Of a stretch of DNA of 41,947 nt, positions 14,791 to 28,803 are shown one piece after another; within the stretch, counting starts at the first letter, position 1, and every line of letters begins with the position of its first letter. The translations under genes were made by a program, and so were the position numbers. Under the pieces are notes generated by a model, which worked only from the letters and a program-made list of their open reading frames with translations, made no database searches and was not told the origin of the DNA. Origin of the DNA: an uncultured Acidobacteriota bacterium (GTDB lineage Bacteria; Acidobacteriota; Blastocatellia; RBC074); assembly GCA_903862855.1 (NCBI GenBank), contig CAIOZW010000121.1, positions 1 to 41,947 of the forward strand, in the 5' to 3' direction.

Positions 14791-15348
14791 ATGAAACTCT
14801 ATTTTCGGCTGACCATTCTTACGTTTCTGATGCTTGCGACTGCCAACCTGCCAGTGGCCTCGCCAAGTAATGAAAAGGCGATCCGGATGTCCCTCCAGAA
14901 ATATTTCAACCTGCTCAGGACAGGGCGCTATGGAGAACTCTACGACACCCTGCCTTCCGCATTTCAGAAACAATCGACACGCGAAGAGGTCGCCGAAAGC
15001 CTCTCCCGAATCGGCGAGTTCCTGAAGCTCGGTCGGATGGAGATCGGACGAATCGAGGTCAGATCGATCGAGCAGCAGGGCGATTTTGCCGTCGCGGCCA
15101 CTACCATCTTTGGTCAACTCACGCGGCCAATCACTCTCAACAACCGGGAGATCAGACAGGGACGAATCAGTTCACAGCAGTATCTGATCAGAGAGAATGG
15201 TACCTGGAAGATCGCCTCGGCCAACGAACGGACACTTCGTGGATTTATGAAAGATCATCCGGAGGTTGCCACCCTCTTCCCCCAGACCCGGACGCGCCTC
15301 GAGCTTCTCAGCGATGGAAAGTGGATCAGAATGCCAGGAAGCCGCTAG
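14791..15348 (+). CDS. Small secreted protein, NTF2/SnoaL-like fold possible
   Basis: The 185-residue protein begins with a signal peptide (MKLYFRLTILTFLMLATANLPVAS, cleavage near 24, given here as the first 24 positions in outline). The body has an alpha-helical start (AIRMSLQKYFNLLRTGRYGELYD) and later beta strands ending QQYLIRENGTWKIAS. That pattern of a helix pair followed by ...NGxWKI is typical of NTF2-like/DUF4864-type domains. No catalytic residues can be assigned. Its stop codon shares the palindromic CTAG with the stop of the convergent gene at 15345. Function unknown. Confidence 0.68.
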   Translation: MKLYFRLTILTFLMLATANLPVASPSNEKAIRMSLQKYFNLLRTGRYGELYDTLPSAFQKQSTREEVAESLSRIGEFLKLGRMEIGRIEVRSIEQQGDFAVAATTIFGQLTRPITLNNREIRQGRISSQQYLIRENGTWKIASANERTLRGFMKDHPEVATLFPQTRTRLELLSDGKWIRMPGSR

Positions 15349-15920
15349 AGAAGCCCCTCGACGGTCTGCTGCCAGGCCAGTGTCTGACGAAGGATTCGCA
15401 ACCGTGATCGCTCCGATTCGTCGACCAGCCGATCGAGCTGGTCGATGATCGACCCGAGCAGCGGATGGGCGAAGAGCCGGGCGTGGGTCACAATGGTCGG
15501 AAAGTAGGCCAGACGCAGCGCCCCGCCATCCTCACGATGGAACTGCAGCAGTTCCTCTTCAGCCAGAGTCTCGACAGGCGAGTTGACCGGCAGAACCTCC
15601 CGCGGCACTCCCTGACGGTAGCGCTTCCCATCGGTCCAGCCAAGCAGGAGGATCGAGATGACCACTCCCTGTTCATTCAGAAAATCCGGACTGAAGACCG
15701 CGTTCAGCTCGTGCGGTGCGGTCAGCCGCGGACCGTATGAGCCAAATTCAGGATTGACCAGTTGTGAATTATAGATTATTCCCACCGCCCCGCCGCTACG
15801 GACAAAGCGGCCGAAGGCATGATCAGCGGGGACTGGCGCCGCAGCCGTCTCCTGCGAGTCGAGCACACGTGCAACATAGTCGAGGTGCGAAGTCGACTGA
15901 ACAACGCGGGCGATCTGCAT
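15345..15920 (-). CDS. Unknown conserved-looking protein, possibly a HAS-barrel-like N-terminal domain
   Basis: The 191-residue protein starts at the ATG at 15920, with GGGGGAG ~9 nt upstream and only 2 nt after the preceding gene's stop. It is therefore probably translationally coupled to the D-aminoacylase-like gene. A region GGAVGIIYNSQLVNPEFGSYGPRL is beta-rich and faintly resembles the small HAS barrel that precedes HerA-type ATPases, but no ATPase domain follows. The C-terminal third is helical and charged (LLGSIIDQLDRLVDESERSR). No signal peptide or membrane segment. I do not recognise the family with confidence. Confidence 0.65.
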   Translation of the reverse strand: MQIARVVQSTSHLDYVARVLDSQETAAAPVPADHAFGRFVRSGGAVGIIYNSQLVNPEFGSYGPRLTAPHELNAVFSPDFLNEQGVVISILLLGWTDGKRYRQGVPREVLPVNSPVETLAEEELLQFHREDGGALRLAYFPTIVTHARLFAHPLLGSIIDQLDRLVDESERSRLRILRQTLAWQQTVEGLL

Positions 15921-15922
15921 GA

Positions 15923-17650
15923 CTAACGTCTCCCCCGTGATGCTCCGGTGACCTTTCCCGGCCCCCATAGGGCCCGACCGGGTCTCTCCCCGGTGTGAAT
16001 CCCGTCACGGATCACCTGGCGACCGTTGACGAAGACGTGCGTCATCCCAACCGCATACTGATGAGGCTTCTCGAAGGTCGCCCGATCGGCCACCTTCTCC
16101 GGATCAAAGACGACCACGTCGGCAAAATAGCCTGGCTGCAATAGACCTCGCCTCTCCAGCCCGAGATTGGCGGCGGGCAGACTGGTCAAACGGCGAATCG
16201 CCTCGGTCAGCGAGAGGACCTTCTCTTCGCGGACATACTTGCCAAGCAGCCGGGAGAAGTTTCCATAGGCCCGGGGATGTGTCGAGGCCTTGAGAAAGAC
16301 ACCTTCCGTCGCCATCGACCCGGCATCCGATCCGAATGAGACCCAGGGATACCTCATCTGCTTGCTGATATTCTCCTCAGAGATCATGAAATAGACCGTT
16401 CCGACCCGCGAGCGATCCGCGAGAATGAGGTTCATGATCGTCTCGACCGGGTCCTCACCACGCTGACGGGCCACTTCGGCGAGTGTCTTGCCGATATATT
16501 TGCGCAACTCTTCACTGCGAAAGTCGACCAGCAACACCCGCTCGGGCGAACCTGCGCTGAGATAGAGATTCTCCCACTTATCAGTTGGTGTTCTTATCTC
16601 GTGGGCAATCCGGCGCCGCGTCTCCGGATCGGCCAGCCGCTTGAAGAGTGCCGGATATCCGCCGTCGAGCACCCAGGGAGGCATCGAGGCGGTCAGACCG
16701 GTCGATCCTGCGGTGTAGGTGTACATATCGGCCGTGATCTTCATCCCATCCTGCCGCGCCCGCTCGATCTTCGCCAGAACCTCATCCATCTTCCGGTAGT
16801 TTTCACTCCCCGCTGCCTTGAGATGGTAGATCTCCGCCGGGATGTCAGCCTCGCGGGCGATCCGCAACAGCTCGTCTACCGCCTCCAGCAGACGGTTCCC
16901 CTCACTGCGCATATGAGAGATATATTTGCCCTGATACTTTGCCGCAACCTTGCAGAGTTCGATCAGCTCCTCAGTCGAGGCATAGAACCCCGGTGCGTAG
17001 ATCAGTGAGGACCCGATGCCAAGCGCTCCATCCTTCATCTCTCGCCGGACCAGCTCACGCATCCGCTCCATCTGGACTGGCGTTGCGGGACGATCCTCGA
17101 GTCCGATCACGTGCTCGCGAATGGTCGTCGCCCCGATAAATGAAGCGACGTTGCAAGATACTCCACGCTGCTCGAGGTGACGCAGATATCCGGTCAGGGT
17201 TGTCCACTCGATCGGAAACCGAATATCTCCCTGCGCCGCAAGCTGGCGCTGGCGCATCTCTTTACTCACCGGCCCCATCGAGGTGCCCTCACCAAAGATC
17301 TCGGTCGTCACTCCCTGCAGCAGATCACCCATCGATCGCCCATCGACCAGCAGATCATCAACCGCCCAGGAGAGCATGTTGATGAATCCTGGCGCAACTG
17401 CCTTTCCCTGGGCATCGATGACTCTCTTAGCCCGGGCGCGGTAGCGAGGATGCTGATAGTCTCCGACTCCAATAACCCGGTCTCCACTTATCAGCAGATC
17501 GGCCCGTCGCGGCTCCTGCCCGGTTCCGTCATAGATCGTTCCGTTCAGAATCAGGGTTTGATCTGCAACTCTGGACTGGGCTCCCCCACTCACCGGCAAG
17601 AGGAGGCATACCACCAGGATAGGAATCAATGCACGCCATATTTTCGGCAT
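15923..17650 (-). CDS. Exported D-aminoacylase-like amidohydrolase with altered metal site
   Basis: A signal peptide (residues 1-~26, ending GGAQS) is followed by an amidohydrolase-superfamily protein of 575 residues. The layout is that of N-acyl-D-amino-acid deacylases: LILNGTIYDGTG at the start, APGFI before the first barrel strand, His246 in YISHMRSEG, His276 in IYHLKAAG, Asp442 in FGSDAG, and VVFDPEKVADRATF with a small C-terminal beta domain. The usual HxH after PGF(I/V)D is replaced by NMLSW (91-95), and the cysteine ligand region reads FGEGTS with Glu121. The activity may be unusual or restricted to a mononuclear site. GGAGG lies 8 nt before the ATG at 17650. Probably periplasmic. Confidence 0.85.
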   Translation of the reverse strand: MPKIWRALIPILVVCLLLPVSGGAQSRVADQTLILNGTIYDGTGQEPRRADLLISGDRVIGVGDYQHPRYRARAKRVIDAQGKAVAPGFINMLSWAVDDLLVDGRSMGDLLQGVTTEIFGEGTSMGPVSKEMRQRQLAAQGDIRFPIEWTTLTGYLRHLEQRGVSCNVASFIGATTIREHVIGLEDRPATPVQMERMRELVRREMKDGALGIGSSLIYAPGFYASTEELIELCKVAAKYQGKYISHMRSEGNRLLEAVDELLRIAREADIPAEIYHLKAAGSENYRKMDEVLAKIERARQDGMKITADMYTYTAGSTGLTASMPPWVLDGGYPALFKRLADPETRRRIAHEIRTPTDKWENLYLSAGSPERVLLVDFRSEELRKYIGKTLAEVARQRGEDPVETIMNLILADRSRVGTVYFMISEENISKQMRYPWVSFGSDAGSMATEGVFLKASTHPRAYGNFSRLLGKYVREEKVLSLTEAIRRLTSLPAANLGLERRGLLQPGYFADVVVFDPEKVADRATFEKPHQYAVGMTHVFVNGRQVIRDGIHTGERPGRALWGPGKVTGASRGRR

Positions 17651-17728
17651 AAGTAGGTCCTCCACCAATCCGGGGGCAACTCTCCCGGACTCTGTTTGAC
17701 TCAACCATTCGACACGCTCCGCTCGGTT

Positions 17729-19027: not shown

Positions 19028-21082
19028 CTACTCGTAGAGTTCACGCGGAAACCGCTCGATTCTTCTCGTCAGTTTACGACCCACCGCAAAGATATTGTCT
19101 CCACGCAGGTCGCGGGAAATACCGGTTCGGTCAAGTCGGGCAAGAAGATCCTCTGGCGGGTCGTGCCAGATATTCTTTGTCAGCAGCCTGATCACCTCGA
19201 AACCACCTGCTTCCAGGGCCACCCGGACATCCTCCGGAGTATACTCACGTGCGTGCCGATCAGCCGGACTGCGGCGATTGTATTGCCCATAGATGTATGG
19301 ACTGTTTCCGCCAAGAACCGATTCGATACTGTGGGCAGAGGCGATATTTGGCGTGGTCAGGATCAGCAACCCTCCCCAACGCAAGACACGCTGAATCTCG
19401 ACCAGCATCTGGAGCGGGTCTTCGCGCAGGTGCTCGATCAGCTCGCCACACACGACCACGTCGAGTGTGCCATCATCGAAAGGCAGCCGATCATGCTCGA
19501 CATCAACATTGTGCATCAGGTATTGGAGCTCTTCACCGGTCACCGAGTGGCGGAGCGTCATCACCTTCTGACGCGGTCCTCCCTCCCACCAGTTGGTCAC
19601 CAGTATTTCACCATAGCCGCCATACCGATGGAGCAGCGGCGGCATCTGCAGATAACTGCTCAATTCAAGGATCTTCTGATCCGGCCTCCCGGGCGGAATG
19701 AGGGCGAGGGTCTCCATCAGCCTCTTCCCGTGGGTCTGCAGATAGTCAAGTGCTTCCGGGTTATCGGCAAAGAAGCCACCAACATAATGAAGCGCCTCCT
19801 CCGCATCGATGGTGGTTGGGAGAGGGTCCGGAAAATCGAGCCGGTAGTCGGTCTCGACCGGGACTGACACCCCAGCCTGGCGCTCATCGATCAGTCGGCG
19901 CGCAAACTGAAGATATCTCTCTGCCGAACGCTCGATGGTGCACTCCTCGCGAATCCAAGCCCGTGCCCGTCGGGCAAGGTGGTCACGGAGTTGGGGACGA
20001 TAGGCCAGCGCCTGCAGCTGGTCGGCCAGCCGCTCCTCCTCCCCTTCGCCCGGGGCAACCCGCAGACAGACATCCTCTGGAAGATCGGCAAACTGTCCGA
20101 AATCACTGACGATCATCGGCTTGCCAGCGCCGAGGCTCCTCACCAAGGTCCCCGAGGTCTCACCTGCCGTGGGATAACGCAGGTTGACCAGCACATCGCT
20201 CGCTTTCAGATAGCGGAAGAAGTCTCTGCCGGTCACATAACCGGTCAATCGAACGTGGTTTCGCAACCCGAGCTGCTCGATCAGCGGGGCCACCTGCCAC
20301 CGCCAGTGATCCTCCCCGACGATCAGATACCGCGCATTCGGCACCAGCCGCAAGAGCCTCTTGAAGGCTGCCAGAACCACCGGCAAACGCTTTGGCTGCG
20401 TCACAAAGCCCTGCGATGAGACGATAAATGCATCGTCCGGCAGGCCGAGCGAACGCCGACACTCCAGTCGATCCCAGCCATCCAGATCGAACGCCGCCGG
20501 GGAGAGATGATGCGGAATCACCTCGACCGGTCGGCCGGCCGCCGGGTCCTCCAGCTGTGATGCAGCGTAGTCACTGTGAACCGCCACCCCCAGGCTCCGG
20601 TTGATCAGCCGGTGGTTGAGTGGCATCAGAAACTGCTGGTACTCGCTCGAAATCGCCCGCGCGCGCGTCTCGGCCATCCGTGCCCCAAGGCGACCGTACG
20701 CATAGAACATCTCTCTCCAGTAACCCTCCTCATCTCCCTGCCCGAGCGTCCTCCAGACAATCAGGTGATGAAGGCAATGCTCATGGAGGACGAGCAGGCC
20801 TGGCGTGCGCAGGGCCCGCTCATAGACATAGTCGTGGTATGGATTGTTTCCCTGATGGTAGAGGCAGAGATCGAAGGGATTGAGCCGATCGATCTCTTCG
20901 AAATGGATTGCCTGCGCGATCTGGCAGGATGGATCAGGAAGACGGTCGGGCGACGATACCGGCGGCTGATCGACAAAGACCGTGATCTCCGCCCCCTTGG
21001 CCAGCTCTGGAAGAAGCTCTTCACTATAGTCGGCAATTCCCGACTTGACCGGCGGGAGCGGGGAGAAATAGGCCAGTCGCAT
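19028..21082 (-). CDS. Glycosyltransferase family 4 fused to a SAM methyltransferase
   Basis: The 684-residue fusion has an N-terminal GT4-type glycosyltransferase (~1-400). It opens MRLAYFSPLPPVKSGIADYS, contains SSQGFVTQPKRLPVVLAAF and YLIVGEDHW, and ends with the donor-binding ASDVLVNLRYPTAGETSGTL. A C-terminal class I methyltransferase (~440-684) carries NVDVEHDRLPFDDGTLDVVVCGELIEHL, EIQRVLRWGGLLILTTPN and a Tyr-rich substrate region. The G-rich motif I is weak (KILELSSYLQMPP). It lies 15 bp downstream of lgt and upstream of the Wzt-like ATPase. The fusion suggests chain extension and methyl modification or capping of a surface glycan. Cytoplasmic; substrates unknown. Confidence 0.87.
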   Translation of the reverse strand: MRLAYFSPLPPVKSGIADYSEELLPELAKGAEITVFVDQPPVSSPDRLPDPSCQIAQAIHFEEIDRLNPFDLCLYHQGNNPYHDYVYERALRTPGLLVLHEHCLHHLIVWRTLGQGDEEGYWREMFYAYGRLGARMAETRARAISSEYQQFLMPLNHRLINRSLGVAVHSDYAASQLEDPAAGRPVEVIPHHLSPAAFDLDGWDRLECRRSLGLPDDAFIVSSQGFVTQPKRLPVVLAAFKRLLRLVPNARYLIVGEDHWRWQVAPLIEQLGLRNHVRLTGYVTGRDFFRYLKASDVLVNLRYPTAGETSGTLVRSLGAGKPMIVSDFGQFADLPEDVCLRVAPGEGEEERLADQLQALAYRPQLRDHLARRARAWIREECTIERSAERYLQFARRLIDERQAGVSVPVETDYRLDFPDPLPTTIDAEEALHYVGGFFADNPEALDYLQTHGKRLMETLALIPPGRPDQKILELSSYLQMPPLLHRYGGYGEILVTNWWEGGPRQKVMTLRHSVTGEELQYLMHNVDVEHDRLPFDDGTLDVVVCGELIEHLREDPLQMLVEIQRVLRWGGLLILTTPNIASAHSIESVLGGNSPYIYGQYNRRSPADRHAREYTPEDVRVALEAGGFEVIRLLTKNIWHDPPEDLLARLDRTGISRDLRGDNIFAVGRKLTRRIERFPRELYE

Positions 21083-27344: not shown

Positions 27345-27462
27345 TGACGGCTACTGGCTGCAATGGGCAGTCAAAGATAGTCAACGATGGAGATTGCGGC
27401 CCATTTGACACAGACCACCTGAGGAGCGGTCCGGGTGGCACGAACTGCACGAACTGGTGGTT

Positions 27463-28803
27463 ATGGCCCGTAAGCGCTCACATCAGCATCAGCGTTCAAG
27501 CCGGGCCCAGACGCCGGGATCCGAACGATCCTACTATGAGTACCTGGCCACGGCGCCAGCCTACCGCATCTCGCGCAGCGAGATGGTTCGCGCCATCAAG
27601 GGTGGCGAAGATACATACCTCGAGCTGAAGGTTCGCTTCAGCAATGTCGACAAACTTGTGGCCGAGATCATCGCCCTGGCCAACACTGATGGCGGGGCGA
27701 TCATATTTGGAGTCAACGATCAGTTACGGATCGAGGGAGTCGATGATCCGGAGGATGTCGAGACCCAGTTGCGTGAGATCTGTGCACGGCAGATCCAGCC
27801 GCCGGTCTTGCCCTGGATCAACAAGATCGCCTTTGACAATGGGCGACGGATCGTCATTCTCGAGCTGAACACGGCCAATCGTCCCCACCGCACGCTCGAC
27901 GATCGATTCTATGTCCGCGAGGGGGCGATCAAACGCGAGGCGACTGCAGAAGAGCTCTCCCGACTTTATGAAGACACGCACCTGACCCGCTTTGAGCAGG
28001 TGCCCGTCTTTGCCAGTCTGATCAGCAGAGATATCGATGAGTCACTATTCTGGAGCTATGTGCGTGGAGTCTACCCTGACCCGTGGAAGGATGGTGGGCG
28101 AGGATTTCCGACGGAGCAGGTGATGATGGAGATGGGCCTGGCCGTGAAGATTGGAACGGGGATCGTCCCGACCATCGGAGGGCTGATGCTCTTCGGGATG
28201 CCGGAACGGGTGGCCGAACTCCTGCCAGCCAACGACCTGCTGATGACCCGGTATAGTGGAATTGGTCCTGTTTCACCGGTCATTGAGCAGGTTCGGATGA
28301 ATGGCAATCTCTTCCAGATCTTTGAAGGGGCGCTGAAGTTCATCGAGCGTTACGTCGATCTGCGTGACGAGCGACCAACACGACGAGAGCGGCGCGGAGA
28401 TAACGGGCTTCAGGCCGGGGCCGATCCCGAGGAGCAATTTCTGCCGGTCCGCGCGAGTTACCACCGTGGTGTGCTGATCGAATCGCTGACCAATTGCCTG
28501 ATTCATCGCCACTGGGGGGCGCGTGAGAAGACGGGGCGGATCAACATTTTTGACCAGAGTATTGAGATGCTCAACCCGGTGGCGCCGCTGGAGCTCCCGG
28601 CCGTCTCGATGAGATATGGTATCGGCAATCCTCCCAATCCACGGCTGAAGGCCGTCCTCACCAATCAGCATTATGGACTGCCAACAGTTCGCGGAGGTGT
28701 TCCGTGGCTGGTCGCCGAGGCGGCAAAATATGCGCGGCGTCAAGCTGAATGGCCCGTGCTCAACCAGGGTGAGTTCCGGCTGAGGCTTCATGGGCTCTGT
28801 TGA
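27463..28803 (+). CDS. AlbA_2 (Schlafen-type) DNA-binding domain protein, RecG-helicase-like family
   Basis: The ~446-residue protein has an AlbA_2/Schlafen-type domain at ~40-155. It includes EDTYLELKVRFSN, ALANTDGGAIIFGV, PPVLPWINKI and the closing FYVREGAIKREATAEEL. A middle region follows, then a C-terminal ATPase-like part (~290-446) with ESLTNCLIHRHWG, resembling the HATPase_c_4 module (EAxxNAxxHRdY) of this family. Such proteins are often called putative transcriptional regulators or RecG-like, and their biochemistry is poorly defined. I start at the ATG at 27463. A GTG at 27457 is possible, and neither has a strong Shine-Dalgarno. Its 3' end overlaps the ComEA-like gene by 14 bp. Confidence 0.82.
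   Translation: MARKRSHQHQRSSRAQTPGSERSYYEYLATAPAYRISRSEMVRAIKGGEDTYLELKVRFSNVDKLVAEIIALANTDGGAIIFGVNDQLRIEGVDDPEDVETQLREICARQIQPPVLPWINKIAFDNGRRIVILELNTANRPHRTLDDRFYVREGAIKREATAEELSRLYEDTHLTRFEQVPVFASLISRDIDESLFWSYVRGVYPDPWKDGGRGFPTEQVMMEMGLAVKIGTGIVPTIGGLMLFGMPERVAELLPANDLLMTRYSGIGPVSPVIEQVRMNGNLFQIFEGALKFIERYVDLRDERPTRRERRGDNGLQAGADPEEQFLPVRASYHRGVLIESLTNCLIHRHWGAREKTGRINIFDQSIEMLNPVAPLELPAVSMRYGIGNPPNPRLKAVLTNQHYGLPTVRGGVPWLVAEAAKYARRQAEWPVLNQGEFRLRLHGLC

Follow-up and report, generated by a model that had tools for sequence, protein, structure and literature searches.

The closest described enzymes to the protein discussed here are AfDam, the D-aminoacylase from Alcaligenes faecalis (1m7j), the N-acyl-D-glutamate deacylase from Bordetella (3gip), and the D-acylase from Klebsiella (9g5m/9gv8), together with the GlcNAc1A deacetylase PpOngB (9kb1, 9kb3). 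In the PpOngB paper (PMC12017989), a single zinc ion is held by Cys97, His222, and His252 and is sufficient alone, which bears out what an earlier note on this DNA had said of D-aminoacylase-type enzymes, namely that their tight zinc is held by a Cys and the two later histidines. Asp368 is the catalytic residue, Lys254, Tyr285, and Arg379 hold the alpha-carboxylate, and Tyr194 serves the amide oxygen; the replacement of either His of the HxH motif by Ala abolishes activity. The paper also presents PpOngB as a case in which a fold for amino acids has turned to a sugar acid, ties a Thr at its position 292 to D-aminoacylases rather than to OngB, attributes a Glu/His/His metal site to CE9 enzymes, and counts a metal-independent subset among the amidohydrolases. 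In NagA from E. coli, the CE9 N-acetylglucosamine-6-phosphate deacetylase, QxN replaces HxH and there is one metal, at the beta site, according to PMC3880350 and PMC6016474.

The window, a stretch of 41,947 nt of acidobacterial DNA, encodes a D-aminoacylase-like protein in which both the HxH motif and the Cys ligand are replaced. With a probability of roughly 0.55, it would be active as a hydrolase that binds one metal through Glu/His/His and cleaves N-acyl-D-amino acids or X-D-amino-acid dipeptides.

The gene and its product

The amidohydrolase gene occupies positions 15923-17650 on the minus strand, in one open frame of 575 aa plus stop; by frame reading, the plus strand of the same interval is interrupted by stops. 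Its ATG, at 17650, stands 7 nt downstream of a Shine-Dalgarno-like GGAGGA (17658-17663, by direct sequence reading), and all the protein features given below are encoded on the same strand. Residues 1-25 (17576-17650) resemble a signal peptide, as judged by eye from the translation, the pLDDT of the model being low at residues 3-26, and the protein is probably secreted. A damaged gene or pseudogene was considered and rejected on the basis of the intact frame, the ribosome-binding site, and the retention of all the remaining site residues.

The protein matches the Pfam family PF07969 (Amidohydro_3) with 90.8 bits, above the gathering cut-off of 29.7. Its score with the NCBIfam model NF006560 (PRK09061 subfamily), 217.2 bits, falls below the curated cut-off of 340, and 10 other homologues of both the Glu- and the Cys/Asp-type score 176-230 bits. 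The best solved structures by sequence are the D-aminoacylase 1m7j (2.8e-75), the Klebsiella D-acylase 9g5m, the D-Glu deacylase 3gip, and PpOngB (9kb1); no solved close relative of the Glu-type was found among the structure matches listed, as seen from their loops in the alignments. The AlphaFold2 model, made with 81 aligned sequences, reaches a mean pLDDT of 93.3 and a pTM of 0.91, and superposes on 3gip, 1m7j, 9g5m, and 9kb1 with Z scores of 52.7-53.8 over 466-470 residues (53.1-53.8 for the three D-acylases, around 53 for PpOngB). The superposition on 1m7j (Z 53.6, 467 residues aligned, rmsd 1.8) covers the D-aminoacylase fold over the full chain. The next-best family, that of dihydroorotase, reaches a Z of only 32.9, and the Foldseek ranking agrees with the superposition. 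The earlier note had proposed such a model as a check, and what it delivers is the fold. NagA was not seen in the best 50 structural rows, a scope that excludes nothing.

Loss of HxH among homologues

The homologues form a subfamily in which the loss of HxH goes together with a particular loop. Of 199 genomes from the window's phylum, Acidobacteriota, 104 gave matches at E ≤1e-60. In the acidobacterial set of 114 sequences, HxH is missing in 64, all of them with the Glu loop; those that keep HxH comprise 26 of the Cys-type, 11 of the Asp-type, and 11 with Glu, besides two distant ones (L006 and L007, paralogues from the window's own genome with an alignment-placed Glu, whose inclusion raises the number with HxH and Glu from 11 to 13). 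The second set of 79 sequences, made up of all 76 matches listed for Pseudomonadota and Bacteroidota and of three additional ones, divides in the same way: 22 lack HxH and have Glu without exception, and the 57 with HxH are 22 Cys and 35 Asp. Pooled over the three phyla, the 193 unselected homologues include 86 without HxH, all 86 have the Glu that corresponds to Glu121 of the window protein, and HxH is absent from none of the 94 Cys- or Asp-type rows. The Fisher value for this association is 5e-43, which, the sequences being related, is no true probability. Twelve further plasmid sequences behave alike: Glu is present in the seven that have lost the first His or the whole pair, and Cys or Asp in the five that retain HxH.

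A separate group of named loci, all 80 without HxH, is the best 80 of 542 found by sequence patterns; as one pattern spans PGF(I/V)(N/D)(M/I), the group was left out of the frequencies. The relatives with PGFINMLSW that the earlier note had mentioned do exist, and span ten phyla by NCBI ranks. One isolate with an orthologue is Algoriphagus boseongensis (L133). A search of the open literature that included the motif strings returned no paper evidently about the HxH-less clade, as judged by titles and abstracts.

The first His is lost in 86/86 unselected HxH-less proteins, and the second is kept in five of them and in four of the 80 named ones. Glu-type members with the second His only (L064, L226, L228, L277, L279, L281-L284, L144, L171, and L193) carry motifs such as DIQSH, DVMSH, NMLSH, and NVLSH, and may mark intermediate steps.

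Another variant of the metal site, with HxH kept and Asp (xDG) in place of Cys, accounts for 46 of the 193 unselected sequences, with L003, L004, L089, L095, L102, L103, L110, and L115 among the examples. Several changes are needed on the tree, so this variant may have arisen more than once. In the Cys-type sequence L208, from the Pseudomonadota set, both later His are missing in the alignment, the sequence being perhaps misaligned or else a real outlier.

The metal site and the pocket

As the earlier note had it, N91-M-L-S-W95 (17366-17380) stands at the site of HxH, which otherwise follows PGF(I/V)D. The D-x-H-x-H of canonical relatives is aligned to N91-M92-L93-S94-W95, so that L93 and W95 take the places of the two His. 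The region of the bridging cysteine reads F119-G-E-G-T-S124 (17279-17296), again as noted earlier, and replaces the canonical xCG/xDG loop with one that is a residue shorter in the alignment. Within it, Glu121 (17288-17290), invariant in the unselected HxH-less relatives, is the proposed third metal ligand. The alignment places it one column before the Cys of Cys-type relatives, and this offset and the shorter loop count against the single-metal reading, in which the ligand geometry of Glu121 is a prediction from sequence.

The remainder of the site is that of a D-aminoacylase. The roles of the PpOngB residues were mapped through the alignment to 1m7j and the spacing of residues. The predicted metal ligands His246 (16913-16915; PpOngB His222) and His276 (16823-16825; His252) are found in 86/86 unselected HxH-less proteins, and so are the predicted alpha-carboxylate anchors Lys278 (16817-16819; Lys254) and Tyr310 (16721-16723; Tyr285) and the predicted amide-oxygen partner Tyr218 (16997-16999; Tyr194). 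The predicted catalytic Asp442 (16325-16327; Asp368) and the third anchor, Arg460 (16271-16273; Arg379), are found in 85/86 each, the remaining one being a gap. In the named HxH-less proteins, Glu121 and these seven residues are all present in 80/80. The retention of both His and of Asp442 in the window protein, which the earlier note had pointed out, is thereby extended to its relatives. The window clade resembles AfDam, 3gip, and the Klebsiella D-acylase in fold, His/His ligands, catalytic Asp, and Lys/Tyr/Arg anchors; these three enzymes, however, have the HxH and the Cys ligand, neither of which occurs in the clade, and they lack its shorter loop with Glu121 and its W-E-N insert (W359-E-N361, 16568-16576), which is mostly missing in Cys/Asp-type relatives. 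Since two defining features fail, the Cys ligand and HxH, the protein was not filed as a D-aminoacylase.

Could a second metal be held by other residues? A canonical two-metal enzyme with a restored alpha site might draw on the second His where it is retained, or on Glu117 and Glu273, both enriched in the HxH-less clade. Nevertheless, no position has gained a conserved His or Cys (present in more than 80% of the NMLSW-class rows and in less than 30% of the HxH rows), and the universal loss of the first His makes this the least probable of the alternatives. The restoration of a binuclear site by other histidines, which the earlier note had named as a refutation of its proposal, finds no support in the alignment.

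What is seen instead are changes at positions that would border the former alpha site. At position 174, 85 of the 94 Cys/Asp-type rows have His or Gln, and 71 of the 86 HxH-less ones have Ala, as does the window protein (Ala174, 17129-17131). At position 275, Ser or Thr prevails in the Cys/Asp-type rows (86/94) and Tyr, Trp, or Phe in the HxH-less ones (85/86), with Tyr275 (16826-16828) in the window protein. The correlation of these changes with HxH loss is clear in counts, and the tree gives at most three independent pairs, with which the test has no power. We read the alpha site as abandoned and filled, as far as residue patterns can tell, and not as rebuilt.

With HxH and Cys, three classical ligand positions are gone, and a hydrolase with a degenerate metal site that works by acid-base catalysis of Glu121 and Asp442 would have company in the metal-independent subset mentioned in the PpOngB paper (PMC12017989). 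The conservation of His246 and His276 in 86/86 unselected and 80/80 named proteins would be unexpected without a metal, and NagA, as reported, retains one metal without HxH, which makes such a hydrolase improbable. Similarly, the inactivity of the HxH mutants of PpOngB (same paper) could suggest a non-catalytic pseudoenzyme with a binding or scaffolding role. A lost site is, however, not typically accompanied by a catalytic Asp, a His pair, and anchors that are near-invariant over three phyla, and this alternative is judged about equally improbable, if not slightly more so.

The single-metal reading has two precedents. PpOngB offers one for a single metal at the beta site, but differs by its Cys/His/His ligands, its kept and essential HxH, and its Ser292 where the clade has Thr317 (PMC12017989). 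NagA is alike in the absence of HxH and in the Glu/His/His single-metal site predicted for the clade; still, it belongs to another family of the superfamily and was not among the sequence matches listed, which excludes nothing. The residues of a subtype IV-like Glu/His/His site without HxH are present and invariant in the clade according to the alignment, which informs on residues and not on geometry. The clade most likely works like a D-aminoacylase with a NagA-like site, which it would have acquired independently, starting from an ancestor of the Cys- or Asp-type. The mononuclear site suggested in the earlier note is thus consistent with the invariance of Glu121 and with the loss of HxH only where Glu is present, the metal ligation by Glu121 being a prediction.

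Order of the changes

The tree of 114 sequences was built without the two site regions, from 80 of about 120 further listed places, the first loci, and five paralogues of the window's own genome (two more being duplicates); L032 was left out as a fragment. The 75 Glu rows fall on one side of a branch with an SH-aLRT of 97, and the 27 rows of the NMLSW class form a clade at 100. A subfamily, rather than damage, is strongly supported, as the earlier note had suspected, by the 86/193 unselected homologues without HxH and by their place in one Glu clade. On the best tree the HxH state changes three times. When the 64 HxH-less rows were held together, the likelihood was 5.6 log units better (AU p 0.58), and a single loss is not rejected. 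The simplest story, a likely one, has the Glu first and then one loss of HxH, with the deep branches of the Glu clade being weakly resolved.

Since either His is essential in PpOngB, the loss of both should be harmful unless compensated, and the way in which the clade would compensate is a guess of ours. A more tentative reading goes further and takes the order of events as a route to a NagA-like one-metal site within the D-aminoacylase family, leading from Cys or Asp to Glu, followed by the loss of HxH and a bulky refill, with an overlooked clade of secreted dipeptidases releasing D-Glu from L-Ala-D-Glu in at least ten phyla. In this doubtful scheme, HxH would be given up only in a Glu background, and D-amino acids, chiefly D-Glu, would be freed from peptidoglycan debris and taken up, entering in some hosts the DgcN/DgcA route.

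Proposed mechanism

In the single-metal reading, one metal would be held by Glu121, His246, and His276, and a water molecule would be activated by Asp442. The free alpha-carboxylate of the D-residue would be held by Lys278, Tyr310, and Arg460, and the amide oxygen by Tyr218. The second (alpha) metal position would be gone through the change of the HxH pair to L93/W95, accompanied by those of position 174 from His or Gln to Ala and of position 275 from Ser or Thr to Tyr or Trp. Likely substrates would be N-acyl-D-amino acids broadly, the foremost candidates being dipeptides with a D-residue at the end, for instance the L-Ala-D-Glu of peptidoglycan.

Genomic neighbourhood

The gene of the window lies in a co-directional run with genes for IleS, LspA, Lgt, a glycosyltransferase-methyltransferase, a Wzt-like ABC ATPase, an unknown protein, and a methyltransferase. 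As a functional clue these neighbours were set aside as uninformative, the partner genes being absent: S12 beta-lactamase-type serine hydrolase, DgcN, epimerase, and M19 dipeptidase gave no match within the window. Elsewhere in its genome, DgcN has a distant match of 149 bits, against a cut-off of 480.

Other genes of the window deserve a mention. The unknown protein is encoded on the minus strand at 15345-15920, its ATG (15920) lying 2 nt past the stop of the enzyme, and is probably translationally coupled to it; the longer ORF 15345-15968 had no Pfam or NCBIfam match. At 19028-21082, also on the minus strand, a single protein combines a GT1-type glycosyltransferase domain with a C-terminal methyltransferase domain and adjoins the ABC ATPase with its Wzt C-terminal domain, the two being probably part of a glycan export locus. 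A Schlafen/AlbA_2 domain protein is encoded on the plus strand at 27457-28803.

The relatives are more telling. At the 80 named loci, an S12 serine hydrolase occupies 10 of 156 adjacent positions compared to 1 of 623 farther ones; the Pfam tallies of adjacent genes cover 39/44 upstream and 34/39 downstream same-strand neighbours, with short, overlapping, or oddly placed ORFs left out. Single-sequence searches found S12 at 11 of the loci, DgcN at 3, a shared membrane protein at 3, an enolase-type epimerase at 4, and the M19 dipeptidase at 2. Any of these partners was present at 15/80.

The 65/80 named loci with none of them leave room for an enzyme with the same single-metal site and another class of substrates, such as N-acyl amino sugars, lactones, or xenobiotic amides, for which the D-amino-acid context would be incidental. 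The fold of PpOngB has itself exchanged amino acids for a sugar acid, as stated in PMC12017989, and the W359-N361 insert and further clade-specific changes could alter the pocket. Against this stand the alpha-carboxylate anchors, which 85-86 of the 86 HxH-less proteins in the unselected sets retain, and Thr317, which corresponds by alignment to PpOngB position 292 and is present in 27/27 NMLSW-class tree rows in place of the OngB-type Ser, Thr being the D-aminoacylase residue in the same paper. Such a change of substrate is rather unlikely, if the most plausible of the alternatives to hydrolysis of D-amino-acid substrates by this site.

In the most similar named relative (L118), consecutive genes encode DgcA, a POT peptide transporter, a TonB receptor, DgcN, S12, and the enzyme, with an overlap between the S12 gene and that of the enzyme; the Dgc scores lie below the NCBI cut-offs (DgcA 374 bits vs. 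400, DgcN 439 vs. 480). According to PMC12363236, a route of D-Glu racemisation has dgcN as its key gene. At two acidobacterial loci that share the class of the window gene (G114 and G025), S12 lies immediately upstream of the enzyme; G025 also has an enolase-family enzyme, the shared membrane protein, a tricorn-type protease, and an X-Pro dipeptidyl-peptidase-like protein. The adjoining genes in the closest relative (G009) are unrelated, with no partner genes among them. S12 is adjacent at 3 of the 14 NMLSW-class loci fetched from the phylum, one of them being the same locus as the named L187, and at none of the five of the DMLGQ-like class. A DgcN match above 430 bits occurs in 3 of 199 genomes of the phylum, two of them also with an NMLSW-class gene, numbers too few to use.

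Plasmid records add further cases, of which 11 of 143 enzyme matches and 6 of 81 DgcN matches were examined, one being unannotated in the stretch. Croceicoccus marinus, with an NMLSW-class enzyme, has the order TonB receptor, DUF1611/DgcN, membrane protein, serine hydrolase, enzyme. On pKN1 of Sphingobium yanoikuyae, the order is serine hydrolase, dipeptide epimerase, TonB receptor, DUF1611, membrane protein, serine hydrolase, M19 dipeptidase. The M19 membrane (renal-type) dipeptidase thus takes, after DgcN, the membrane protein, and S12, the last place held by the enzyme in C. marinus; it is unrelated by Pfam family, and gene order suggests it as a functional stand-in. In Novosphingobium EMRT-2, the row runs to a serine hydrolase with neither enzyme after it. 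At four other DgcN plasmid loci examined, dgcA or an epimerase lies beside dgcN in three, the Glu-type enzyme in none, and an HxH/Asp-type amidohydrolase is near one. A Glu-type enzyme is also encoded at four Deinococcus plasmid loci. In three of them it is accompanied by serine hydrolases, ABC transporter genes, and a MurR/RpiR regulator, in one case together with a membrane dipeptidase, and the fourth has none of these partners.

A membrane protein of about 370 residues recurs beside DgcN, S12, and the enzyme (L278 2174-3289, L292 1887-2984, L174, L192, L134, and L313 7993-9126). It had no Pfam match in the three copies scanned, and is a candidate transporter of D-Glu or of dipeptides. The S12-DgcN arrangement is present in L174, from Sphingomonas caseinilyticus, and in L192, from Luteimonas sp. 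8-5.

Since Cys-type homologues (from Natrialba and Haladaptatus) have similar neighbours, the gene context points to D-amino-acid peptides for the wider family and not for the new site alone.

Significance for the family

The database names "D-aminoacylase" and "amidohydrolase family protein" ignore the altered site. Beyond what the earlier note had described, the comparison shows in what order the site is likely to have changed and which genes accompany its relatives. If the single-metal reading is true, the clade would be a natural experiment, in which a swap of metal ligands makes an otherwise essential HxH dispensable, a dispensability previously known, in the literature as far as available, from the distant NagA family. 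Members of the clade occur in Acidobacteriota, Bacteroidota, Pseudomonadota, Verrucomicrobiota, and other phyla. Its predicted function would be the cutting of X-D-amino-acid dipeptides from cell walls, and the partner genes in other genomes point to the recycling of cell-wall D-amino-acid peptides.
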